A stretch of 46,199 nucleotides of DNA from a virus. Location: the IMG/VR virus record IMGVR_UViG_3300023174_000268, positions 1-46,199 of that record, one strand, 5' to 3'. A program made the translations under genes and the position numbers. The stretch's first letter is position 1. The number at the start of each line of letters is the position of its first letter. The notes beneath the pieces are model-generated. The model did no database searches, was not told where the DNA came from, and was given only the letters and a program-made list of their open reading frames with translations. Positions 2,423 through 33,065 of the stretch are shown here, piece by piece.

Positions 2423-5400
2423 TTATCCGAAGATTTGAGAGGCAAGTACCAATTGGTCCCCGTCTCCCTTTGTTAAATTACCTGCTTTATCTATTGCTGA
2501 TAATAGTGTACCGCTAGAGTTTTGCCACTCTTGCAAATTAGCAGTTTGTGAGGCTGCACCTTTGACTACTAAACCAACAGTTCCAGTTGTTTGCGAGGTA
2601 ATAGTTGCGTTACCAGCAAATGTGAGTGTCTTAGCAGAAAAATCTCCACCAATAAGTGGGGTAGTCGTATTAGTATTTGCTATATAAAGTTTGTTAGAAC
2701 CTGTTTCATAATATCCTGCTTCACTTCCTAAGAAAATATTACCAGAACCAGTTGAATTTGAAAATCCAGCATTCTGTCCTATTCCTACATTGTTACCACC
2801 CGAACTATTTAACAGTAAACTTTGAATTCCAACTGCTGTGTTTCCACTACCAGAAACATTAGATATCATCGCTGCAGTACCAATTGCAGTATTACTATAT
2901 GCATAATTATTGTTTTGTAATGCACCTTGACCAAATGCGGTATTATACCAACCAGTTCTATTGTTATATAATGCATTTTGACCAAATGCAGTATTTTGAG
3001 TTCCAGATGTATTAAGTTGAAGAGATTGATTTCCAAATGCAGTATTGTAAGTACCAGTGGTGTTTGAAACAAGTGAATTAAGTCCAACAGATGTATTACT
3101 TGAAACCGAGCCAGCACCCATACCAATAACAACACCATTAATGCTTGCATCAACTGCAGAGGTTAATTTACCTGTTGGGGATATGGATGCAAGCACCGTT
3201 CCAGCGCTGTTCTGCCATTGTTGAAGGTCACCAGTTTGACCTGACGTTCCCCGAATTTTAACAACGTTCATTCCTGTTGAACCAGGATTAGAGATAAGAA
3301 AACCCTGAGTAAAAGGTTCAAGTCTTGTTTCATTTGTTCCACCGTCTAATAATCTAAGTCTTCCATATCCAGACGCACCACTATTAGAGATATATTGATT
3401 TCCAAGAATTAAATTACCATCAGAATCAACTTTAGCAAGCACCGTACCAGCAGAGTTACGCCACTGAGTTAAATCACCAGTTTGGGATGTTGCACCATCT
3501 ATTACCGCTACTATTGCGCCAGCACTACCTGATTTAACTCTAAAATAAGATAAACCAAAACTTGATGCTTGAATACCTAAATTATTTAAAACATTGTCAC
3601 CGCCAGCATAACCACTGGTTAATCCATTATTAATAAATCCGCCAGCAAAAACATCAAAATCTTTTGTTACTTTAGCATATACAGTACCAGAACTATTCTG
3701 CCATTCTTGAAGATTGGCAGTTTGAGAGGCTGCGCCTTTTACAATTAAAGGTTTAGTGGTTGCAGATTGAGAATTAAAATTTGCCGAACCGTCATTTTTT
3801 AATTGCCAATAGTTAAGATTATGGTATACATTGTTTGCATAAAGAGTGGTGTTTGTAATAATCTGTCCGTATTGGTCTATGTATGCACCCTGGAAATCAA
3901 CTCGCCCATTGGCTTGAACGCTTACAAGAGAAGTACCAGCAGAGTTCTGCCACTCTTGCAGGTTAGCAGTTTGGGATGTATTTGCTTTTACAATTAAAGT
4001 TGTGGTTGTTGTACTGTTTGTAACAGTTGCAAGAATTGAGCGAGCATTTGCTTCGATATTAAAAACACTACTATATGCTCCTAGAGTTGCATAATTATTG
4101 ACTGTTGCAGGTATGCCAAAATGAAGTTTTGCTCCAGCGGCTGTTGCATCTAACTTAATATTTGTTGTTGCAGGAGTACCTGTTGTAAAACCGCCAGCAG
4201 GGTCAAGTTTAGCAATTACCGCACCTGTTGAATCCTGCCACTCCTGGAGATTTGCAGTTTGACCTGATGCGCCACGAACAACTACGGGAACAACCGTAGC
4301 ATTTCCACCACTACCAAAGGCAGTTAATACGCTTGAAATTGTTCCAATACCAAAACCGTTTGAGTTGCCACCAATTTGACGATAGGCACTGCCATTTACA
4401 AATCCAGCACTATCAACATTTGCAAGTACAGTTCCAGAACTATTCTGCCACTCCTGAAGGTTGGCTGTTTGGGATGAACGAGCACGTACTATAATTCCAA
4501 TATTTGCAGCACTGCCTGTATCGAAATATGCGGTTCGCTTTACTTCTAATGCACCTTGGCCAGCAAGACCAGTCGGTGTTCCATTGCTGCTATTTACGGA
4601 TATTGCTCCACCTGAGCCTACCGCAGATAAAACGGCTCCGCCACTATTCTGCCACTCCTGAAGATTAGCAGTTTGGGAGGCTGCGGCTTTAACAACCATA
4701 GTTGCAGCAGTTGTAGAGCGACCAATAAATGTGGCCGAGTTAGTTGCTACTGTATCCCAATATGTTCCAGATATATTAATTCCATCAAAATATCTAAAAC
4801 GAATTGCGGTTGAAGAACCACTTCCTGCTGTAACATCTCCATCTTTAGAAACACTTAATAAAGTAAAACCATCACTTCTCTGCCATTGTTGAAGGTCGCC
4901 TGTTTGAGATGCCATTCCTTTAATAGTAAATAGTACATTTGATGTTGTATTTCTATTTTGCAATAATACATTTGTACTTGTCATATTAAAATATGGACCA
5001 TTGTCATCATAATTTACAATAAAATTATTCCAAAGAACTGATGCTTTAAAATGGTCGGCTGTCATACGTCCATTTGAATCAATTTGTGCAAGTATGGTCC
5101 CAGCACTGTTCTGCCATTGTTGTAGGTCGGCAGATTGGGAGGCTAGTCCTCTAACAATTAGTCCAATACTTGATGTAGAAGATGGAACAATTCTACCTTC
5201 TAGGTCCATCTTAAATACAATAGTATTTGATGAGTTTTGTAATTGAATAGCATGTGCGCTTGTAGCGGTAGATTTCATTGTTATAATACCGCTACTACCT
5301 GCACCTATAACATAAAGGGAGTAACCATTTGGTGTTGAAGTAGGTGATATATTAAATGCTCCACCAGACTCTACGGAAGCAAGCACAGTCCCACTAATAT

Positions 5401-17494: not shown

Positions 17495-17528
17495 CTTGAC
17501 ACCCGCTGTCAAGTAATGCTACTATTAT
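17495..17528 (+). promoter_or_regulatory. Palindromic operator and TGTCAA-N10-TATTAT promoter
   Basis: CTTGACA-CCCGC-TGTCAAG has perfect 7-bp arms and sits between the divergent glycosyltransferase and lysozyme genes. Its right arm, TGTCAA, lies exactly 10 bp before TATTAT, the spacing of the phage's other rightward promoters. The left arm read leftward is a consensus -35 sequence. A regulator bound here could control both directions. Confidence 0.6.
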
Positions 17529-17552
17529 AGTTCGTTATCTCTAAAGGAGGAA

Positions 17553-18119
17553 ATGCCAATGGAGAAAATCAAAGAACGTTTGAGCGATGTTGCTCATAAC
17601 TGGTCTTACATAGTAATGATAACATTATTTTTGTTTACAGTCCAGCCTGGTCCAACATCAAGTCAAGCGTTAACTACATTACCTGTAAAGGTAATAAAAA
17701 CCGAAAAACAACTAAAAAGAGAAATAATAGATAAGTTCAGCAATGATACTTATAAGCATTCAGAAATGCTTACAGCCTCGGATTTAAAAGATTTATTATG
17801 GGCTGTAGGATTTGAAGGAACTGCTTTAAAAACAGCTTGGGCTGTTGCTCGTGTAGAGTCTAATGGGAGACCGCTAGCTTTAAATGACAATGTCAAGACT
17901 GGAGATAAATCTTACGGGATTTTTCAGATTAACATGTTGGGAGACCTAGGTGTGAATCGTAAAGAAAAATTCGAATTAGTTTCAAATAAGGAATTATTTG
18001 ATCCAGTAACAAATGCAGAGATAACGTACTATATGACCAAAGGCGGCAAAGATTGGTCATCTTGGCCTAACTCGATAGATAAGGCCAGGAACCTCATACC
18101 AGAGTTTCCAAAAAATTAA
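17553..18119 (+). CDS. Secreted or anchored lysozyme-like / lytic transglycosylase protein
   Basis: 188 residues. A hydrophobic segment (about 17-31, WSYIVMITLFLFTV) serves as signal anchor or signal peptide. The C-terminal domain has the lysozyme-superfamily pattern: AVARVESNGRP with likely catalytic Glu102, then GDKSYGIFQINMLGDLG (about 118-133). It would cleave peptidoglycan at the membrane-wall interface. It is separate from the CHAP endolysin at 43322, so it may act in a different step such as a late spanin-like role, entry priming or wall remodelling (inference). AAAGGAGGAA before the ATG is the strongest Shine-Dalgarno sequence of the region. Confidence 0.8.
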   Translation: MPMEKIKERLSDVAHNWSYIVMITLFLFTVQPGPTSSQALTTLPVKVIKTEKQLKREIIDKFSNDTYKHSEMLTASDLKDLLWAVGFEGTALKTAWAVARVESNGRPLALNDNVKTGDKSYGIFQINMLGDLGVNRKEKFELVSNKELFDPVTNAEITYYMTKGGKDWSSWPNSIDKARNLIPEFPKN

Positions 18120-18131
18120 GGAGGAGTTAGA

Positions 18132-18341
18132 TTGCAAAAGATACAGCTAGTATCTAAATACCTAACTCTCGCAGAGGAAGGCCTTGTTCCTAGGATTGAT
18201 TGTCCAATGGATCAGGGCCTTCTGATGCCTAACCTGTCAGAAGAAAATGAGATATACTTATATTGCCTTTCATGTGATTTTAAGAAAACTATTGGGACGG
18301 AATATTATGCAAAACTTAAAGAGTGCGTCGATAGAAACTGA
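18132..18341 (+). CDS. Small cysteine-containing phage protein (69 aa, TTG start)
   Basis: Starts at TTG after AAGGAGGAG. The pattern IDCPMDQGLLMPNL, then YLYCLSCDFKKTIG gives one cysteine, then a CxxC, like a small treble-clef or zinc-ribbon fold common in actinobacterial phages. It lies 12 bp after the lysozyme gene in the same operon. Function unknown. Confidence 0.65.
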   Translation: MQKIQLVSKYLTLAEEGLVPRIDCPMDQGLLMPNLSEENEIYLYCLSCDFKKTIGTEYYAKLKECVDRN

Positions 18342-18423
18342 CGGCGGTCAAATAAAGGAAACTGACTCTATGGGTAGAGAAAAGTTCTGGGAAGACTTGG
18401 GGCGGCCTAATGACGGAGAATGA
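18307..18423 (+). CDS. Overlapping miniprotein (38 aa, or shorter from 18370)
   Basis: The frame overlaps the previous gene by 35 bp and the next by 14 bp. A later ATG at 18370 after AAAGGA gives the more natural start MGREKFWEDLGRPNDGE. Acidic, with no cysteine. The tight nesting fits neighbouring genes, but coding evidence is limited to continuity and position. Confidence 0.4.
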   Translation: MQNLKSASIETDGGQIKETDSMGREKFWEDLGRPNDGE

Positions 18424-18625
18424 AAAACCACAAAATTTAGAAGATAACCTACCTATGGTTAATTACATTATGCTACACAGAATATACGACCTTCTGACTC
18501 TAATTGCTAATAAGATGGTTGGGCCAGAGGATGTATCCAAGATGGTTGAATATCATAATCAAGGCTACCTATTAGGACCTGCCCCCTCATTTACCCCCAG
18601 CGAACAGGAAAAAGACAATGCATAG
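18410..18625 (+). CDS. Unknown phage protein (71 aa)
   Basis: Acidic start, helical middle (LPMVNYIMLHRIYDLLTLIANKM) and a disordered, proline-containing end. No family recognised. It overlaps both neighbours by a few bases, as in a compact phage operon. Confidence 0.6.
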   Translation: MTENEKPQNLEDNLPMVNYIMLHRIYDLLTLIANKMVGPEDVSKMVEYHNQGYLLGPAPSFTPSEQEKDNA

Positions 18626-18818
18626 TGTTCACAGCATTAATGTAGTGGAGTCCTATTTAAACAAATGCCTTAATGTAGAGAACGGTAGATGTAACCTAAC
18701 CTGGAAGCATGAAGAATGCAGGGTACTCATGGAGATACTCTACGAAATGACAGAGGACAACAAGTACAAAGAAGAAGAATGGCTATTTGACCCAAATCAA
18801 AAACTTCTCTGGGAATAA
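18618..18818 (+). CDS. Unknown phage protein (66 aa)
   Basis: Contains CLNVENGRCNLTWKHEECR, a C-x8-C-x8-C arrangement with a histidine that could bind a metal, then an acidic helix. It is the last gene of the rightward operon; an independently transcribed RNA follows it. Function unknown. Confidence 0.6.
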   Translation: MHSVHSINVVESYLNKCLNVENGRCNLTWKHEECRVLMEILYEMTEDNKYKEEEWLFDPNQKLLWE

Positions 18819-18822
18819 ATGC

Positions 18823-18851
18823 TTGACATAGAATTTAAGTTATTTTATACT
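18823..18851 (+). promoter_or_regulatory. Consensus promoter of the small RNA
   Basis: TTGACA (18823-18828), 17 bp, TATACT (18846-18851). It is a strong housekeeping-type promoter placed after the operon's last stop, and no coding frame follows before the terminator. Confidence 0.8.
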
Positions 18852-18857
18852 TTATAT

Positions 18858-18957
18858 GTACTGGTTGTAGCATCCCACAAGATTAAGCTCCCAGTATAAC
18901 GTGTAGCAATACACTAGGAAAACCCAATCGGATCCGCCTCTGATTGGGATTTTTTCT
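18858..18957 (+). ncRNA. Candidate structured small RNA of about 100 nt
   Basis: Between a strong promoter and an intrinsic terminator lies a non-coding transcript with three nested or serial stems. TACTGG pairs with CCAGTA (18859-18864 and 18891-18896), enclosing TTGT and ACAA. A perfect GTGTA-GCAA-TACAC hairpin with a GNRA tetraloop follows (18901-18914), then the terminator stem. No open frame with a Shine-Dalgarno sequence is present. It does not match tRNA, tmRNA or another RNA class I recognise. It might regulate host or phage mRNAs, or act as an RNA decoy. It faces the leftward HNH gene, which ends 14 bp away. Confidence 0.65.
18923..18956 (+). terminator. Intrinsic terminator of the small RNA
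   Basis: CCCAATC pairs perfectly with GATTGGG and is followed by ATTTTTTCT, a classic hairpin plus U tract. It can also help end leftward transcription weakly. Confidence 0.85.
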
Positions 18958-18970
18958 GCTGTTTTATATT

Positions 18971-19366
18971 TTAAGGTTTGCCAGATCTTTGATAAGTTCT
19001 TATTCTGTGGCAATTAGCACAAACAACTTCACATTTAGCAATCTCCGCTTTTATGATCTCAATATCGTGGGTATGATTTCTATAAGCAGAAACACTAAAG
19101 TCTTTATTATCTGATATATGATCTAGATCAAGCATGTAATACGGATACTTTTCTCCACAGTCAATGCAACCAAAGGATTCTTTGTATTCTCTAATGTGTT
19201 TATCAATAACTCGCCTATAACTTCTTCGACGGGTATTATAGTTAACCTTTACGCTTTCGCTTAGATGATATGCAATAGTTCCCTTAGAACAACCTAGTAT
19301 TTCTACTATCTGATTGTATGTCTTACCTTCAGCCCTAAGCTTAATAATGTTTTCTTTATGTTTCAT
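18971..19366 (-). CDS. HNH endonuclease with N-terminal HTH
   Basis: 131 residues from the ATG at 19366. The N-terminus has a helix-turn-helix (IIKLRAEGKTYNQIVEILG). The C-terminus is an HNH/treble-clef nuclease: CIDCGEKYPYYMLDLDHI, then CEVVCANCHRIRT, with two CxxC zinc knuckles and the catalytic D-H. It resembles free-standing homing endonucleases. The start is chosen because TATAAT lies 6 nt before it, so the mRNA is leaderless. It lies directly beside tRNA genes, a common home for such elements, and a related HNH gene sits on the other side. Confidence 0.85.
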   Translation of the reverse strand: MKHKENIIKLRAEGKTYNQIVEILGCSKGTIAYHLSESVKVNYNTRRRSYRRVIDKHIREYKESFGCIDCGEKYPYYMLDLDHISDNKDFSVSAYRNHTHDIEIIKAEIAKCEVVCANCHRIRTYQRSGKP

Positions 19367-19372
19367 AGTTCG

Positions 19373-19401
19373 ATTATACAAAATGGATCGAATCATGTCA
19401 A
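19373..19401 (-). promoter_or_regulatory. Leaderless promoter of the HNH gene
   Basis: On the minus strand TTGACA (19401-19396), 17 bp, TATAAT (19378-19373), then 6 nt to the ATG. It is a perfect housekeeping promoter placed 3 bp from the 3' end of the neighbouring tRNA gene. Confidence 0.85.
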
Positions 19402-19404
19402 TAG

Positions 19405-19478
19405 TACACCAGGAAGGACTTGAACCTACGATAACCGAATTATGAGTTCGGGGCCTTAACCAACTTGGCTACTGGTGC
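19405..19478 (-). tRNA. tRNA with CAT anticodon (Met, or Ile2 if modified)
   Basis: The minus strand folds as GCACCAG/CTGGTGT acceptor (first pair G-U), GCC..GGC D arm, CCGAA-CTCATAA-TTCGG anticodon arm and GTAGG..CCTTC T arm with one mismatch. The anticodon is CAT. Elongator Met and lysidine-modified Ile cannot be told apart by eye. No CCA is encoded. Confidence 0.85.
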
Positions 19479-19482
19479 TAAG

Positions 19483-19555
19483 CTGACCCACCAGGCCTCG
19501 ATCCTGGGACATTCGAATTAACAGTTCGACGCTCTACCAACTGAGCTATGGGTCA
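19483..19555 (-). tRNA. tRNA-Asn (GTT)
   Basis: Perfect acceptor TGACCCA/TGGGTCA, D arm GCTC..GAGC, anticodon arm TCGAA-CTGTTAA-TTCGA and T arm CCAGG..CCTGG, with G as discriminator. Anticodon GTT. Only 4 bp separate it from the CAT tRNA, so both are probably processed from one leftward transcript. Confidence 0.92.
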
Positions 19556-19628
19556 ATAATTCTATTATACTAAATAAAGTGCGATATGAAAAGTGAGTCC
19601 GAAAAAAGTGCGGCGGAGATAGAAGACC

Positions 19629-19910
19629 CTATTTAACTTTAGCTATCCTTCTCATATAAGTCCTAATACGATGACAATTAGAACATACTATCTCACATTT
19701 AGCTATTTCTTCATCAATCTTCTTCTTAGATAAACTCTTGATCAATTCCATAACATTTGCCTGTTTGCGACCTCTGACGTGGTCAAAGTCCATAACATAG
19801 TATGGGTAGATCAATTTGCAGTCCATGCAAGGAGTTGTGTTCTTAAGGTCTCTAATGTATTGGGCCAAATAAGCCTTCTGCTTGGCTATAGAGAGCTTTT
19901 CAGCCTTCAT
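19629..19910 (-). CDS. HNH endonuclease (93 aa)
   Basis: The nuclease core matches the C-terminal half of the larger HNH gene: PCMDCKLIYPYYVMDFDHV, then CEIVCSNCHRIRTYMRR, with two CxxC zinc knuckles and the D-H active-site motif. It lacks the N-terminal HTH, so it may be a minimal or truncated relative. AAGG lies upstream of the ATG. The two nucleases bracket the tRNA pair. Confidence 0.85.
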   Translation of the reverse strand: MKAEKLSIAKQKAYLAQYIRDLKNTTPCMDCKLIYPYYVMDFDHVRGRKQANVMELIKSLSKKKIDEEIAKCEIVCSNCHRIRTYMRRIAKVK

Positions 19911-19972: not shown

Positions 19973-20089
19973 TTACCCGTTTTTATTTGAATTTAATTTA
20001 GATATACACTCTACACAATAATTCTCTAGTACACCTTTATTGTTTAATCTATCTACATATTTAGCATTGTCACAGAAATTACATTTCAT
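19973..20089 (-). CDS. Zinc-ribbon miniprotein (38 aa)
   Basis: Two CxxC pairs (CNFCDNAKYV and YCVECISKL) 16 residues apart and a short lysine/asparagine tail. It starts at ATG 20089. It is probably a zinc knuckle that binds a nucleic acid or host protein; no family recognised. Confidence 0.6.
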   Translation of the reverse strand: MKCNFCDNAKYVDRLNNKGVLENYCVECISKLNSNKNG

Positions 20090-20103
20090 ATTTATATATA
20101 TCC

Positions 20104-20153
20104 TAGTCGACTACAATATTAGATTTAACAAAATGTTAATAAATATTTTTTTT
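20104..20153. repeat. 50-bp direct repeat, copy 1
   Basis: Shares 37 of 50 positions with 20594-20643, centred on AAAATGTTAATA. Copy 1 lies just upstream of the 38-residue zinc-ribbon gene; copy 2 lies in the divergent spacer. It may be a duplicated promoter or protein-binding region. Confidence 0.5.
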
Positions 20154-20261
20154 CTACTTACAGCTCTTATAATGATTAGATAGTGTTAGATGTGCAAATC
20201 CAGATCTTACTTCTATTTCCCGCCCACATTTATCACAAGTTACTAATCTAGTTGATGCCAT
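20154..20261 (-). CDS. Zinc-finger miniprotein (35 aa), leaderless
   Basis: The pattern CDKCGREI, then H-x5-NHYKSC gives C-x2-C and a distal H/C pair, like a small C2HC finger. TATAAT ends 6 nt before its ATG and a -35 box lies 17 bp further, so it is the first gene of the leftward unit starting in the divergent region. A small regulatory or host-modifying protein is likely; no target can be named. Confidence 0.65.
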   Translation of the reverse strand: MASTRLVTCDKCGREIEVRSGFAHLTLSNHYKSCK

Positions 20262-20267
20262 TGTTTT

Positions 20268-20296
20268 ATTATATACTATCTATATATTCTAGTCAA
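20268..20296 (-). promoter_or_regulatory. Leaderless leftward promoter
   Basis: TTGACT (20296-20291), 17 bp and TATAAT (20273-20268) on the minus strand; the ATG follows 6 nt later. The -35 box is embedded in CTAGTTGACTAG, a near-palindrome. Confidence 0.8.
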
Positions 20297-20593
20297 CTAA
20301 GATATATATCTAAGTATAGAAGTATGTGGATCCATCTGCATTATAAAAGTATTTAATTGTGTACTAGCAAGTAACATAGAACTGTGTATAGCTAAAGATA
20401 AAATTTTAGATGTTAAAGATATTTTTTTCGCTGATGATAGTATTGTGTTAATATGCTACACTCTTCCTATATATACTATATATGTTATATTTTGTATTCG
20501 TTGTATTTCTTGTATTTCCTGACCCCCCGACCCCCCTATGGAATTATAACATTAACTATTTTCGTATGTCAACGATAGCTGTAAAAATATTTT

Positions 20594-20643
20594 TAGTTGA
20601 TTAGGAATTTAGGTTTACTAAAATGTTAATAGAGTTTTATTTT
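20594..20643. repeat. 50-bp direct repeat, copy 2
   Basis: Imperfect copy of 20104-20153, same orientation, with TAGTTGATTA in place of TAGTCGACTA. Confidence 0.5.
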
Positions 20644-20770
20644 GTATGATCCAGTATTTAAAAATGTCCGATTTGTCTATATAGCGAGCCCATAGATTAT
20701 TAACCTTGAGCGTGAGTGTGGTCTATATCACAAAGATTTATTTTTATACTAGCGAGTAGCCCCCCCTAAA

Positions 20771-20792
20771 TGTCAGTCCCCCCTGCTATGAT
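20771..20792 (+). promoter_or_regulatory. TGTCAG-N10-TATGAT promoter
   Basis: TGTCAG, 10 bp, TATGAT with TGC just before it (extended -10). It is the first promoter of the rightward small-gene block. AAAGAAAGG follows in the leader. Confidence 0.65.
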
Positions 20793-20842
20793 TATTATAT
20801 AAAGAAAGTAAGAAACTCTTACTAAAGAAAGGCGGTAATCTA

Positions 20843-20947
20843 ATGAACGATTATCTAGACTATATGGACGAAATCTACGAGGAACTCGTAGAGGAATATG
20901 GACACGATATAGAGTCCAAGTGTGAGCATAATCACACTAACGCCTAA
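20843..20947 (+). CDS. Acidic miniprotein (34 aa)
   Basis: Mostly acidic and tyrosine-rich (NDYLDYMDEIYEELVEEYG), then CEHNHTNA. AAAGAAAGGCGG precedes the ATG. No family recognised. A perfect CRP-type palindrome is embedded in its last codons. Confidence 0.55.
   Translation: MNDYLDYMDEIYEELVEEYGHDIESKCEHNHTNA
20921..20936. promoter_or_regulatory. CRP/GlxR-type palindrome TGTGA-N6-TCACA
   Basis: TGTGA-GCATAA-TCACA matches the cAMP-receptor/GlxR consensus exactly. It lies in the end of the 34-residue gene and 31 bp before a weak TGTCAG-N10-TAGTCT element. Confidence 0.5.
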
Positions 20948-21104
20948 CGGCGTGTCGCTTGATAATGTCAGTCTAATCTGATAGTCTTACGACATACAAA
21001 TTAAATAAAGAATTAGAGCGTGAGCCTAGCAAATAATCCGAAAGGTGAGCCTAGCAAATAACCGCTCAATAACCAACTAACAACTAACGAAAGAAGAAAA
21101 GAAA
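20948..21104 (+). other. Intergenic leader with stems and a 17-bp direct repeat
   Basis: TGTCG and CGACA flank an inner TGTCAG/CTGATA stem (about 20953-20994). GTGAGCCTAGCAAATAA then occurs twice (21020-21036 and 21045-21061), 25 bp apart. TAACGAAAG leads into the next gene. The repeat could be a protein-binding pair or a local duplication. Confidence 0.45.
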
Positions 21105-21197
21105 ATGGATAAACTAAACGAGGCACTAGAAGCCTTACAACAAGCAAACAAGATTTTTGCTGAAATGTTCGACATAGATGAGAGCGAGGCTAACTAA
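21105..21197 (+). CDS. Small helical acidic protein (30 aa)
   Basis: One amphipathic helix (KLNEALEALQQANKIFAEMF) with an acidic end. Its stop overlaps the next ATG (TAATG). It is the first of five tightly coupled tiny genes. Function unknown. Confidence 0.5.
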   Translation: MDKLNEALEALQQANKIFAEMFDIDESEAN

Positions 21198-21370
21198 TGA
21201 TGACTAAATGGGACACTATCCAAGCGGATATAGCAGACGCTTATGTCTATCTAGATGAAGAAGAGGCGTTAGATAAGATTAACGCTGAGGCGATTAGCGA
21301 TAGCGATATCGTAAGCCTTGATGAAATAATCGAGAAAGAATTAACACTAGATTGGGAGGATAGCGAATAA
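21197..21370 (+). CDS. Acidic protein (57 aa)
   Basis: Strongly acidic, alternating alanine, aspartate and glutamate; no cysteine. It starts and ends with TAATG overlaps, so it is coupled to both neighbours. A DNA-mimic-like role would fit the charge but is only a guess. Confidence 0.55.
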   Translation: MMTKWDTIQADIADAYVYLDEEEALDKINAEAISDSDIVSLDEIIEKELTLDWEDSE

Positions 21371-21510
21371 TGATTTATTTTGATTTAGAGGTAAGCAATT
21401 TCGGATTAACAATTTCTACAGAGTGGTTTTATACAGAGTTTAATTGGCTAAGTATTGCTACCGCCCTAATTGTTATAGTTGGCGTTAAATTGTGGAGAGG
21501 TCGTAAGTAA
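21370..21510 (+). CDS. Single-pass membrane protein (46 aa)
   Basis: The last third is hydrophobic (LSIATALIVIVGVKLW) and ends in RGRK, giving an N-out, C-in orientation by the positive-inside rule. Coupled at both ends by TAATG. It may alter host membrane functions during infection. Confidence 0.55.
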   Translation: MIYFDLEVSNFGLTISTEWFYTEFNWLSIATALIVIVGVKLWRGRK

Positions 21511-21644
21511 TGATTAGATTATCCTTAGCCCTAGTAATAGGGCTACTTACCTTCTCCGCCTTCTCAGAGCCTATCTATGCTAACTGCAAGAACACCGCAG
21601 ACGGATACGCTTGCGATCTAGTAGGATATAAGTGGGGTAGATAG
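21510..21644 (+). CDS. Small secreted cysteine-pair protein (44 aa)
   Basis: A signal-peptide-like start (IRLSLALVIGLLTFSAFSEP) with possible cleavage after IYA, leaving about 20 residues with two cysteines (NCKNTADGYACDLVG) that could form a disulphide. It may be an exported toxin-like or superinfection peptide; this is speculative. Confidence 0.55.
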   Translation: MIRLSLALVIGLLTFSAFSEPIYANCKNTADGYACDLVGYKWGR

Positions 21645-21742
21645 TGGCTAATCCTGCTGGTTTCTACACCTGCCCTAAATGCGGTAGGCTCAACGCTGGC
21701 GCATATACTAAATGCGTGTGTGAGCAAACTAACAAAGAATAG
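21644..21742 (+). CDS. Zinc-ribbon miniprotein (32 aa, GTG start)
   Basis: GTG overlaps the previous stop (TAGTG). The pattern CPKCGRLN, then CVC is a small zinc knuckle. It is the last gene of the coupled set; an operator palindrome follows 13 bp after the stop. Confidence 0.5.
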   Translation: MANPAGFYTCPKCGRLNAGAYTKCVCEQTNKE

Positions 21743-21754
21743 ACGGCGTGTCGG

Positions 21755-21769
21755 CTTGACATTGTCAAG
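21755..21769. promoter_or_regulatory. Perfect operator palindrome CTTGACA-T-TGTCAAG
   Basis: Fifteen base pairs, perfectly palindromic, with the same 7-bp arms as the operator at 17495-17513 but a 1-bp spacer. It stands between the end of an operon and the first copy of the intergenic cassette. TGTCAAG is also the core of the stoperator of mycobacteriophage L5, bound by its repressor. Confidence 0.6.
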
Positions 21770-21772
21770 ATC

Positions 21773-21845
21773 GGCCCCTAGCTTCTGTGCGGGGTCGGGC
21801 GTGTCTTACGAGTGTGATTAAAAACACCCTGAAATCTGTGGATAA
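21773..21845. repeat. Intergenic cassette copy a (TTACG-N16-CCCTGAAAT) with DnaA box
   Basis: GC-rich pairing segment (GGCCCC..GGGGTCGGGC), GGCGTGTC-type link, TTACG, 16 bp, CCCTGAAATCTG. A perfect DnaA box (TGTGGATAA, 21837-21845) is fused to the end, and a CRP-like TGTGA-N6-ACACC lies inside (21813-21828). The next 100 bp hold another TGTGA-N6-ACACA. Confidence 0.65.
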
Positions 21846-21947
21846 CTTTGGGCGTGTCGTGGCGTGTCGTCCACAGCCCAAATGTGATTAACAACACACC
21901 ACTTGAGCGTCTCATTATTTGGAATTACTGGCTAGTAGGTAGAGAAT

Positions 21948-21969
21948 TGTCGGTGGCTTCCGCTATAAT
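21948..21969 (+). promoter_or_regulatory. TGTCGG-N10-TATAAT promoter
   Basis: TGTCGGTGG, 10-bp spacer ending CCGC, perfect TATAAT. TATAACGAAAGG follows in the leader of the next gene. Confidence 0.75.
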
Positions 21970-21998
21970 TGCGGTATAACGAAAGGAAGTGGCTAACA

Positions 21999-22202
21999 AT
22001 GGCTAACTTATACACAATACAAGATTTACTAATTGGTAAAATCTATAACTCAAAAACTTTGCGTGGAGAAATTATCTCAGCAGAGAAATCTAATCAACCA
22101 ATTTGGTATGGAGAAAATACGGAAGCGTATTTGGTAGAAGTTTATTCTGCTCATACTTTGCGTAATAAATATCGCACAATTGCGGTGAAGGTTGGTGAAT
22201 AA
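21999..22202 (+). CDS. SH3-like small beta-barrel protein, paralogue 1 (67 aa)
   Basis: Starts at ATG 21999, because upstream bases are promoter and leader. LLIGKIYNSKTLRGEIISAE, then YLVEVYSAHTL and YRTIAVKVGE read as a five-strand small barrel. It resembles genes at 25248 and 25972 in its G-x2-Y/F-x2-KS/TxxG opening and ending. They may be nucleic-acid- or protein-binding paralogues. Function unknown. Confidence 0.6.
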   Translation: MANLYTIQDLLIGKIYNSKTLRGEIISAEKSNQPIWYGENTEAYLVEVYSAHTLRNKYRTIAVKVGE

Positions 22203-22204
22203 TA

Positions 22205-22327
22205 ATGGGATACATTGAAATTTTTCGCCTAGATAATGAGGGTGCTGGCTGGGTAGATTTATCCGAAGCCACTCCCGATGAATTATTTAACATTGAAATT
22301 GGATTACTAAATGAGGGGGCTCTCTAA
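22205..22327 (+). CDS. Acidic miniprotein (40 aa)
   Basis: IEIFRLDNEGAGWVDLSEAT, then PDELFNIEIGLLNEG. Coupled to the next gene by a TAATG overlap. No family recognised. Confidence 0.5.
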   Translation: MGYIEIFRLDNEGAGWVDLSEATPDELFNIEIGLLNEGAL

Positions 22328-22449
22328 TGAACCTAGATGAATTTAAGGCGCATGTTCAAGCAACACGCCAAGCAAGCAAAGCGGAAGCCTTGTCGGTGCT
22401 ATCTGCTACAATTACAATTCAACCAAACGAAAGGGAAAACCTAAAATGA
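22327..22449 (+). CDS. Miniprotein (40 aa) whose 3' end holds the next promoter
   Basis: The codons for EALSVLSATITI contain TGTCGG-N10-TACAAT, and QPNERENLK encodes the AACGAAAGG leader of the following gene, which it overlaps by 4 bp (ATGA). The C-terminus is therefore constrained by regulation. No family recognised. Confidence 0.45.
   Translation: MNLDEFKAHVQATRQASKAEALSVLSATITIQPNERENLK
22391..22412 (+). promoter_or_regulatory. Intragenic TGTCGG-N10-TACAAT promoter
   Basis: Lies inside the 40-codon gene at 22327. Extended -10 (TGC). AAACGAAAGGG follows 12 bp later. Confidence 0.6.
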
Positions 22450-22610
22450 GCAAAATGAAAGAATACATAGAAATAATCGCAGCGAATTGCGATGAATGCG
22501 GTGGCGCAGGATTTTTATTTTTCGGAAACGAAAATAATTATGATGTAGAGCCTTGCGATTGTATCGCAGATTTATCCGATGAATTAAATGTAGATTGGGT
22601 AAATAAATAA
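22446..22610 (+). CDS. DnaJ-like zinc-knuckle miniprotein (54 aa)
   Basis: NCDECGGAGFLFFGN, then EPCDCIADL. CxxCGGxGF is the zinc-repeat pattern of DnaJ and of many small phage metal-binding proteins. The end is acidic. It overlaps the next gene by TAATG. Confidence 0.6.
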   Translation: MSKMKEYIEIIAANCDECGGAGFLFFGNENNYDVEPCDCIADLSDELNVDWVNK

Positions 22611-28919: not shown

Positions 28920-29118
28920 GGATCTAAATCTAATCTATTATTGTGATGCTTGCAGCGTAGCTCGTGCTTCACATCTGATTAAACTATTAGATGGTGACTT
29001 AGCTTTCTGTGGACACCATTATAATAAATATAAAGAGGCCCTTGACAAAAAGGCCTACGAAGTGATAGAATTAAATAAAACGGAAGAAGCAATACCTATA
29101 CTAGAAAAGGCGGAATAA
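28909..29118 (+). CDS. DUF7455-like zinc-binding protein (69 aa)
   Basis: YYCDACSVARASHLIKLLDG, then DLAFCGHHYNKY. The CxxC..CGHH pattern matches small zinc-binding proteins (DUF7455 type) found in actinobacteria and their phages, where they are candidates for RNA-polymerase or nucleic-acid binding. The latter is inference. Confidence 0.65.
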   Translation: MTSEDLNLIYYCDACSVARASHLIKLLDGDLAFCGHHYNKYKEALDKKAYEVIELNKTEEAIPILEKAE

Positions 29119-29119
29119 A

Positions 29120-29524
29120 ATGGGAGACAGAGCAAACTTCGGATTCGTTCAACCGAACGGACACACAATTGTATTATACGGACATTGGGCAGGCCATAAC
29201 ATGCTAGCAAATCTAGCAGAGGCCGTCTTTAAAGCACGTCCACGCTGGAATGACCCTTCATATGCAACACGTATCGCAATCAGTCAAATGGTTGCAGATG
29301 ACTGGAATTCAGAAACAGGATGGGGACTTAGTGTAAATCAGATTAATGATAACGAGCACAAGATTGCTATCGTTGATTTCAAGCAGCAGACATTTAGTCT
29401 TCACGAAGAGGCGCCACACAATGACTTGGACAACAAGGTTCGAGGGATGAGCAATGACGCAATCTTTACTATGGACCTAAGCAACTTTGTTGAGAAGTAT
29501 GCGGACGCCGTAGTATCAGTTTAG
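29120..29524 (+). CDS. Conserved phage protein (134 aa)
   Basis: MGDRANFGFVQPNGHTIVLY, then GHWAGHNMLANLAEAVFKAR. The MGDRANxxF..ILYxHWxG pattern is widespread in phages of diverse bacteria. It forms a small alpha/beta fold of unknown role. It is the last gene before a structured trailer and terminator. Confidence 0.7.
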   Translation: MGDRANFGFVQPNGHTIVLYGHWAGHNMLANLAEAVFKARPRWNDPSYATRIAISQMVADDWNSETGWGLSVNQINDNEHKIAIVDFKQQTFSLHEEAPHNDLDNKVRGMSNDAIFTMDLSNFVEKYADAVVSV

Positions 29525-29838: not shown

Positions 29839-30597
29839 ATGCCAAATTGGGTATATAACACTTTGACCATACAAGGTCCAAAGTCAGAAGTAGATTATAT
29901 CAAAGATAAGTTAAATCAGCCATACAAGGTATTACATGATAGTTGGAATCCTAAGACTAATGAAATGGAAGTATCTGAAACTGTTTATTCCGCCCCTGTT
30001 TTTGCATTTTGGAATATCCACTCTCCATTAGAAGACGGTATCACAATGGAAGAATATGTTCAGCAACCTGACCGTTCAGGTGTTGATACAAATGACCCTC
30101 AGTGGTTTGCTAAGTCTGTTGCTTTTGCTAAAACTCAGAAAGATTGGTATTCATGGAATACAACTAACTGGGGAACTAAATGGGATGTAGCCGTATCAGA
30201 CGGTGATGAGTATCCTGATACTGAATTACTTGAATATGAATCAAAAGGTGATGATAACTGGCTAGTATATAAATATAATACTGCATGGTCTCCTGCTGTA
30301 ACTATCTTAACTAAACTATCTAATCTTGTTCCTAACTGCCTGCTTACATTAGAGTTTGAGGAAGAGACAGGTTGGGGTGGGGAATATGAGATTGTCCGTG
30401 GTGAAGTAAAGGAACTCTTAGAATATGAGAACCGTTGTTCTGAATGTGACTCATATAACACAGTAGAGTATTGCGAAGATGACTGCGGTGAATTCTGCTC
30501 AGAATGTAATTATGGTTCTTGGCAGGATGAAGAGGCTATGGCAAAATGTCAGACCCATAAGATATACTTAAAGACTACAGAAAAGGCGGAAGTATAA
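29839..30597 (+). CDS. Api92-like protein with ferredoxin-like domain and zinc tail (252 aa)
   Basis: MPNWVYNTLTIQGPKSEVDY, FAFWNIHSPLE, WYSWNTTNWGTKWDV, WSPAVTILTKLS and EEETGWGGEYEI are typical of the Api92-like ferredoxin-fold family of phages and plasmids. Its C-terminus adds a cysteine-rich zinc segment (RCSECDSYNTVEYCEDDCGE, then FCSECNYG), with seven cysteines. Role unknown; an anti-defence or replication-associated role is only speculation. Confidence 0.8.
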   Translation: MPNWVYNTLTIQGPKSEVDYIKDKLNQPYKVLHDSWNPKTNEMEVSETVYSAPVFAFWNIHSPLEDGITMEEYVQQPDRSGVDTNDPQWFAKSVAFAKTQKDWYSWNTTNWGTKWDVAVSDGDEYPDTELLEYESKGDDNWLVYKYNTAWSPAVTILTKLSNLVPNCLLTLEFEEETGWGGEYEIVRGEVKELLEYENRCSECDSYNTVEYCEDDCGEFCSECNYGSWQDEEAMAKCQTHKIYLKTTEKAEV

Positions 30598-30815
30598 TGG
30601 CGGAACTATTTATAGATACGGTAGCAGAGCACATTACAGGTGCAATGCAACAGGAAATTGGCGAAGAACTATTTGACCAATGGTCCAATAAAAATTGTGA
30701 TGAGGGTCCTGAATATGCTGAATATGAATTTATGCAGTATGCTTCACCTGAGTTAAAGCAACAGTACAACGTGTACTATGGATATACAGAAAAGGATGAG
30801 TACTACTTATGTTAG
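30597..30815 (+). CDS. Unknown small acidic protein (72 aa)
   Basis: Acidic and tyrosine-rich (DEGPEYAEYEFMQYASPELK). Starts at the last base of the Api92-like gene's stop (TAATG). Function unknown. Confidence 0.55.
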   Translation: MAELFIDTVAEHITGAMQQEIGEELFDQWSNKNCDEGPEYAEYEFMQYASPELKQQYNVYYGYTEKDEYYLC

Positions 30816-32633: not shown

Positions 32634-32657
32634 CAAAGGTCATAGGAAAGGCGGAAT

Positions 32658-33065
32658 ATGAAAACCAAAGAAGAGCAAATCGGAGAACTTCTAGCAAACT
32701 CAGTAGAAGACCATTTCTTCAATCCTGCCGCTTTAGGCAGGTATCTGGCAGACCAACCTACATACACCCTAGACCGTATTATGGAGGTAGTAGCGTGGGT
32801 AATCGAAAAGCAGGCAAGACGATATGACCGTGAGGTAGAAACAGGCGGTCAGGTATCAGAGGGTCTAGCAATAGCCCATAAACTAGATACAGTTATTGAC
32901 AAGATAAAGATAAGTAATGACTTCAAAAATATCAATCTACCTATCACACCAAAAGAACGGGCGGAATTCATAAAATCCCTACCCAAAGAACAAGAGAAAT
33001 CATATAGATACTCTTGGCTACATGAAACTAATAATCAATCTAATATAGTCCAAGCAACTATCTAA
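32658..33065 (+). CDS. Unknown helical protein (135 aa)
   Basis: Helical throughout: EEQIGELLANSVEDHFFNPA, DRIMEVVAWVIEKQARRYD, then KSLPKEQEKSYRYSW. No cysteine. Last gene of the rightward block, right before the DnaA-box region, so a replication-linked role is possible by position only. Confidence 0.6.
   Translation: MKTKEEQIGELLANSVEDHFFNPAALGRYLADQPTYTLDRIMEVVAWVIEKQARRYDREVETGGQVSEGLAIAHKLDTVIDKIKISNDFKNINLPITPKERAEFIKSLPKEQEKSYRYSWLHETNNQSNIVQATI

Follow-up and report, generated by a model that had tools for sequence, protein, structure and literature searches.

A small structured RNA encoded by a low-GC phage would act in trans to repress a regulon of the phage's own mRNAs, pairing the loop of its terminator hairpin with their ribosome-binding sites (RBSs), and we consider this mechanism fairly probable. 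That the element is a genuine structured small RNA we hold to be close to certain. The part that matters most, missed in the initial annotation of this stretch of DNA, is the terminator hexaloop UCCGCC. Genes of the phage carry the complement of this loop, (A)GGCGGA, as a conserved, nonconsensus RBS. The existence of an RNA family, its structure, the invariance of the loop, the complementarity, and the conservation of the target sites are all computational observations, and we lay them out below.

The stretch that we analyzed, hereafter the window, is the whole of the 46,199-base IMG/VR virus record IMGVR_UViG_3300023174_000268, with a low GC content of 38.7%. Its ribonucleotide reductase has 66% identity to the enzyme of Streptomyces phages, and its adjacent glycosyltransferase and ribonucleotide reductase genes are arranged as in Streptomyces phage Anedea; by these two sequence features, the phage is a low-GC relative of the actinobacteriophages. 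Freshwater actinobacteria are the probable hosts of this virus family; a host among freshwater Nanopelagicales is our guess. As the initial annotation had described, the element (Table 1) follows the last gene of an operon and lies next to a tRNA/HNH cluster. The operon is one of short open reading frames (ORFs) at 17553-18818, and the element faces an HNH gene, tRNA-Met, and tRNA-Asn, all on the opposite strand. The two minus-strand tRNA genes lie between two HNH endonuclease genes (18971-19910), and the equivalent slot right behind the RNA holds different tRNAs and insertions in relatives. A region of ~2.6 kb with few long ORFs (20000-22600) carries strong promoter-like sites on its minus strand, TTGACA-18-TATAAT at 20572 and TTGACT-17-TATAAT at 20296. 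The leader of the neighboring transglycosylase gene, TTATAGTTCGTTATCTCTAAAGGAGGAAATGCC (17513-17553), is near-identical in the very divergent relatives L531, L533, G036, G037, G038, and G040, a conservation so far beyond the needs of an RBS that the leader may be another regulatory element.

Table 1. Features of the small RNA and its proposed target sites in the window
Feature	Position	Strand	Description
Sigma-70-type promoter	18823-18851	+	TTGACA-17-TATACT; 11 of 12 matches, spacing kept in relatives
Predicted small RNA	18858-18956	+	~99 nt; covariance model R1 match, 95.9 bits
Hairpin H1	18858-18897	+	7-bp basal stem GUACUGG/CCAGUAU, two-base bulge, inner stem, UCCCAC-containing loop
Hairpin H2	18901-18914	+	GUGUA-GCAA-UACAC, GNRA-type loop
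Hairpin H3 (intrinsic terminator)	18923-18948	+	CCCAAUCGGA-UCCGCC-UCUGAUUGGG; found by terminator scan
Hexaloop	18933-18938	+	UCCGCC, proposed pairing seed
Terminator tail	18949-18956	+	U-rich
Proposed target site, family B	29109-29114	+	GGCGGA, RBS of ORF 29120-29524
Proposed target site	30585-30590	+	GGCGGA, RBS of ORF 30597-30815
Proposed target site, family A	32650-32655	+	GGCGGA, RBS of ORF 32658-33065

The initial annotation had read from the window a structured small RNA with its own strong promoter and a noncoding segment of three stems closed by an intrinsic terminator, and our analysis bears out each part of that description. The promoter match in the window is weak evidence by itself, the region containing 50 promoter-like matches against 47.2 expected, few of which reach 11 or 12 matches; its weight comes from conservation in relatives. 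Most of the 126 distinct copies carry TTGAC[TA]-17-TANNNT, with TTGACT or TTGACA followed by TATAAT, TACAAT, or TATACT, and the spacing is 17 nt in 123 of them. H1 begins 7 nt past the -10 element, a spacing shared by 41 of 58 relatives, which places the probable start of the RNA near position 18858; with its 3' end in the T-run, the RNA would be ~99 nt long. The segment has a folding energy of -34.3 kcal/mol (z = -4.95), and none of 200 shuffles folded equally well. The sequence signals of an independent promoter and an intrinsic terminator are thus both present. Four divergent copies (L137, L140, L176, and L181) have no recognizable TTGAC promoter; processing of the mRNA upstream may produce their RNAs. 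A short open frame at the 5' end of the RNA, ATGTACTGGTTGTAG, was rejected for want of conservation.

That the element could not be a leader had been argued from the terminator that ends it. The reason is unsound, because attenuators also end in terminators, but the conclusion is favored on other grounds. A cis-acting leader or attenuator of a downstream gene would be expected to end in this way, and 75 of 155 relatives do have a same-strand ORF downstream; these downstream ORFs, however, vary in both identity and strand (75 same, 61 opposite, with downstream tRNAs all opposite), the next genes in the window lie on the opposite strand, and no conserved same-strand gene directly follows the element. 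We regard a leader function as scarcely credible.

The RNA had also been called an orphan, a label that no longer fits, since over 100 IMG/VR contigs from related phages carry the same RNA, with essentially a single copy in each genome. We gathered 80 loci from relatives, whose contigs are fragments, by way of the neighboring transglycosylase (17553-18119), leaving the RNA itself out of the search. BLAST located the terminator end of the RNA in 74 of 83 loci, and several of the loci lacking a match, such as L030, L050, and L059, break off too soon for the presence of the RNA to be judged. A pattern search for the terminator hairpin returned at least 120 contigs. Ten contigs of 77 to 115 kb hold one exact copy each, and the sole second match, in G008, has one mismatch. 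We rejected a generic terminator reused across the phage genome on the basis of this essentially single copy per genome, the exceptions being L007 and a second copy in L155. The L007 hairpin (5057-5190) directly follows a gene, has the UCCGCC loop, and lacks the promoter and H1, apparently through deletion of the 5' part of the RNA; the second L155 copy (1374-1399), likewise a UCCGCC-loop hairpin after a gene without promoter and H1, appears to be a duplicate terminator.

No known RNA family had been recognized in the element, and Rfam agrees: no non-tRNA family reached its gathering score in the window or in ten divergent relatives, and at the locus itself the only match with an E value of 10 or less was a chance one to NsiR1 (15 bits, against a gathering score of 39). 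Searches of cultured phages returned no similar DNA for the structured part of the element, and the covariance model found nothing significant in three Streptomyces phages that are among the closest ribonucleotide reductase relatives (best E value, 0.29). Four matches to the terminator core in bacterial and archaeal genomes all lack the rest of the element and were judged to be chance. The RNA looks widespread in metagenomic phages, in a group with very few cultured members.

Covariation robustly supports the fold. Across 61 distinct sequences aligned to the covariance model, 95.0% of cells are paired, both partners have changed in 18 of 29 pairs, and covariation scores 0.483 versus 0.030 to 0.109 for controls with slid partners, although such an alignment leans toward the structure to which it was fitted. 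In a free RNAalifold prediction from the first MAFFT alignment, 14 of 23 pairs varied at both positions. Relatives contain many compensatory changes in the helices that had been put forward for a covariance check, TACTGG/CCAGTA and GTGTA/TACAC: at all seven pairs of the H1 basal stem (98.1% of cells paired) and at six pairs of H2 (86.2%). The two-base bulge of H1 is conserved, and its UCCCAC loop is found in part of the family only. A GNRA-loop hairpin does exist in the window, in the GCAA loop of H2, but it does not define the family, since H2 varies in loop and length, carries UUCG- or UUAG-type loops in other copies, and is absent from L085.

Judged across the copies, the most conserved part of the RNA is not a stem but the terminator hexaloop. 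H3 reads CCCA-N-TYGGATCCGCCTCYGA-N-TGGG in the main group, and a search by H1 pattern yielded 70 true members, 67 of them with GGATCCGCCTC and the other three being L226, L238, and L051. A set selected by pattern is biased by its selection, so we rechecked the invariance of the loop on loci found by the neighboring protein, the H1 pattern, DNA polymerase III alpha (DnaE), and gene family B; a pattern that excluded the standard stem recovered further members, with GAA-UCCGCC-UUU stems. The closing stem is rewritten and the hexaloop kept in L226, L238, L508-L511, L513, L518, and G040, the pairs around UCCGCC varying among GGA/UCU, GGA/UCC, GAA/UUU, and CGA/UUG, and the outer H3 stem is wholly different in G040, which has the same loop, and in G011. 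Exceptions to the loop are UCAUCC in L051 and CCCGCC in G036. The computed probability that the hexaloop is unpaired is 1.0. Dimerization via the palindrome GGAUCC was rejected because L226 and L238 break the palindrome yet keep UCCGCC.

Such a loop might be a protein-binding or scaffold site, for RNA polymerase, the ribosome, or a phage protein, in which case the RNA would be a decoy or a structural molecule that acts without base pairing. All 61 of 61 main-group sequences keep the outer H3 stem CCCA/TGGG unchanged, which suggests sequence-specific recognition beyond the loop, and the conserved bulge in H1 is in keeping with this. Divergent copies, however, rewrite the stem and keep the loop only, and a decoy would match the same sequence in its targets rather than the reverse complement, so that we think a protein site decidedly improbable.

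The reverse complement is what the phage genomes hold. At ribosome-binding positions, GGCGGA recurs across genomes in the same gene families: in 15 of 15 distinct upstream regions of family A, down to 36% protein identity; in 41 of 49 of DnaE, within two unrelated upstream contexts; and in 25 of 44 of family B. The site before ORF 30597-30815 is conserved in G003 and, by similar sequence, in G040 and G042. Some RNA-bearing phages are without the site in a given target, namely, G003 for DnaE and G034 for family B. The transglycosylase gene, our control, has a conserved consensus AGGAGG and GGCGGA in none of 14 upstream regions, and other one-mismatch variants are not conserved at RBSs (GGTGGA, one family; GGGGGA, none). 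When all 95 hexamers of the RNA were scanned against the RBS positions of seven RNA-bearing genomes, the loop window CCGCCU ranked first (AGGCGG seen 23 times, 4.8 expected) and UCCGCC ranked third. The computed loop-RBS duplexes have energies of -13.3 to -18.9 kcal/mol versus -9.7 kcal/mol for an ordinary Shine-Dalgarno (SD) site. By sequence and computed accessibility, then, an accessible, conserved seed is complementary to conserved target sites.

Other measures of the RBSs were set aside or stand apart. GGCGGA is the most overrepresented hexamer in two relatives against a dinucleotide null, but we rejected its genome-wide excess as evidence of targeting, since most of it is the Gly-Gly codon pair GGC-GGA in frame 0. 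Ranking RBS hexamers by the raw count of conserved families was uninformative, as A-rich and SD hexamers dominate, and GGCGGA (rank 48) is not singled out. Ahead of genes in G001-G004 and the window there is strong enrichment, beyond plain AGGAGG, of an extended RBS, (A)ACGAAAGG; 60 of 146 occurrences of GAAAGG are at RBS positions. Family B members without GGCGGA (L346, L349, L353, L362, and others) often start GTGGGA, the exact complement of the H1-loop UCCCAC, and members with GGCGGA start ATGGGA; this is possibly a second pairing site, or chance.

Relatives without the RNA offer a natural control. Downstream of the transglycosylase in G037, G038, and G039, the syntenic position is occupied by a plain AATAAAAAGCCCC...GGGGTTTTTTTATT terminator that lacks the promoter, H1, and the UCCGCC loop. 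The family B site is AGCAGA in these three genomes and GGCGGA in the RNA-bearing G040, a genome of similar distance. At RBS positions, AGGCGG and AGGTGG occur 25 and 14 times where the RNA is present and 3 and 14 times where it is absent (Fisher P = 0.003), counts that are phylogenetically nonindependent because the genomes lacking the RNA are one sister group. One of these, G038, still has GGCGGA before DnaE. That exception accords with a reading in which the small RNA is real, its loop binds host mRNAs or another host RNA, and the GGCGGA of the phage is a tolerated weak SD variant: a C-rich, anti-SD-like loop could also pair with host RBSs, and GGCGGA sites such as AAAGGCGGA retain computed pairing with the 16S tail. 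The conservation of GGCGGA in specific genes, which other one-mismatch variants do not share, and the shift to AGGTGG in genomes lacking the RNA nevertheless make host targets unlikely as the explanation.

The element might instead be a device of DNA and transcription, with a bidirectional terminator shielding the upstream operon from a convergent tRNA array and the transcript as a by-product. In favor of this, the opposite-strand tRNA arrays do run toward the element, L007 retains its terminator alone, and the plain terminators of the control genomes are bidirectional. In G037-G039, however, such a terminator is sufficient, and insulation leaves the conserved promoter, the covarying H1 and H2, and the hexaloop unexplained. 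Moreover, H3 pairs that vary as C-G/G.U or U.G/G-C on the plus-strand RNA would be A.C mismatches on the other strand, so that the hairpin is selected as plus-strand RNA and not as the terminator of an opposing tRNA transcript. We consider insulation very unlikely.

We thus favor translational repression of phage genes through loop-to-RBS pairing, the transcription, in-cell pairing, outcome, and timing of which we infer. Host RNA polymerase would transcribe the ~99-nt RNA from its own promoter and stop at its own terminator, as the conserved signals suggest. The terminator hairpin would present an accessible UCCGCC, which would pair with the (A)GGCGGA RBSs of DNA polymerase III alpha, family A, family B, and a few small genes, block 30S binding, and lower the translation of these mRNAs. 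The position of the sites points to repression rather than activation, and, most simply, replication and early genes would be turned down after early infection. By sequence, the RBS and the loop deviate in matching ways, the SD core from GGAGG to GGCGG and the anti-SD-like sequence from CCUCC to CCGCC, and this matched deviation would constitute a private pairing code to which ordinary RBSs are a poorer fit. With an anti-SD-like loop and SD-like sites, some of the complementarity is to be expected; the specific extra match is, on the sequences, essentially one central base pair, and chance could supply one such pair between two SD-like partners in perhaps one case in four. The odds of loop-RBS pairing are raised by the conservation of both loop and sites and by the genomes lacking the RNA.

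Several known RNAs invite comparison. In the accounts cited here, the C-rich intrinsic-terminator loop of the actinobacterial 6C/B11 small RNA pairs with G-rich, RBS-adjacent sequence (Mai et al. 2019; PMC12395582, PMC8628891), the targets of 6C in M. smegmatis include the DNA replication gene dnaB, and the RNA acts without RNA chaperones (PMC12395582, PMC8628891). The C-rich terminator loop of B11 from Mycobacterium marinum is reported to bind G tracts next to RBSs and to impede translation (PMC12395582); in M. abscessus, both C-rich B11 loops bring about repression by way of the eccB4 leader, where a G tract is present (PMC10470900). The phage RNA, with a different loop and no Rfam match to 6C, lies outside this family yet would work likewise, sharing small size, an actinobacterial setting, and the proposed pairing of a terminator loop near RBSs. 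6C is chromosomal and has loops of cytosine runs, whereas the phage RNA has UCCGCC with a central G in its terminator loop and UCCCAC in H1 in part of the family, neither a cytosine-run loop; its H1 and H2 are also unlike those of 6C, and its proposed targets, carrying the matching GGCGGA, lie in its own genome.

PreS (LPR1) of phage lambda is a trans-acting small RNA that targets host dnaN and depends on Hfq (PMC12197685). It shares with the present RNA a phage origin, action in trans, and a link to DNA replication; the present RNA differs in that it appears to target phage genes, its own polymerase among them, and belongs to a different host group. The c4 RNA of P1/P7 and the sar RNA of P22 block the translation of phage mRNA, c4 around the RBS and probably via loops, each serving immunity and lysogeny through a single antirepressor mRNA (PMC12197685). 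We propose the same kind of block here, but with one site shared by several unrelated genes. The stable RNAs C and D of phage T4 are small structured RNAs that lie beside a tRNA cluster and are cotranscribed with the tRNAs. The present RNA is likewise small, structured, and close to tRNA genes but lies on the strand opposite the tRNAs and has its own promoter.

Few cases have been documented of phage-encoded, multitarget small RNAs that control the phage's own genes. Here the seed and the targets are named and relatives lacking the RNA serve as a natural control, which makes this mechanism directly testable with reporters. The paired deviation of GGCGG and CCGCC recalls the orthogonal ribosome-binding pairs made by engineering and might be put to the same use. 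That it constitutes a private translational code, in which a variant anti-SD loop, CCGCC, serves a regulon that includes the replicative DNA polymerase and has the matching RBS GGCGG, is a proposition to which we give an even chance. If it is true, the phage would adjust many of its genes in concert while leaving ordinary RBSs largely unaffected, and the loop and its regulon would have been kept together over large divergence, eroding together where the RNA is absent.
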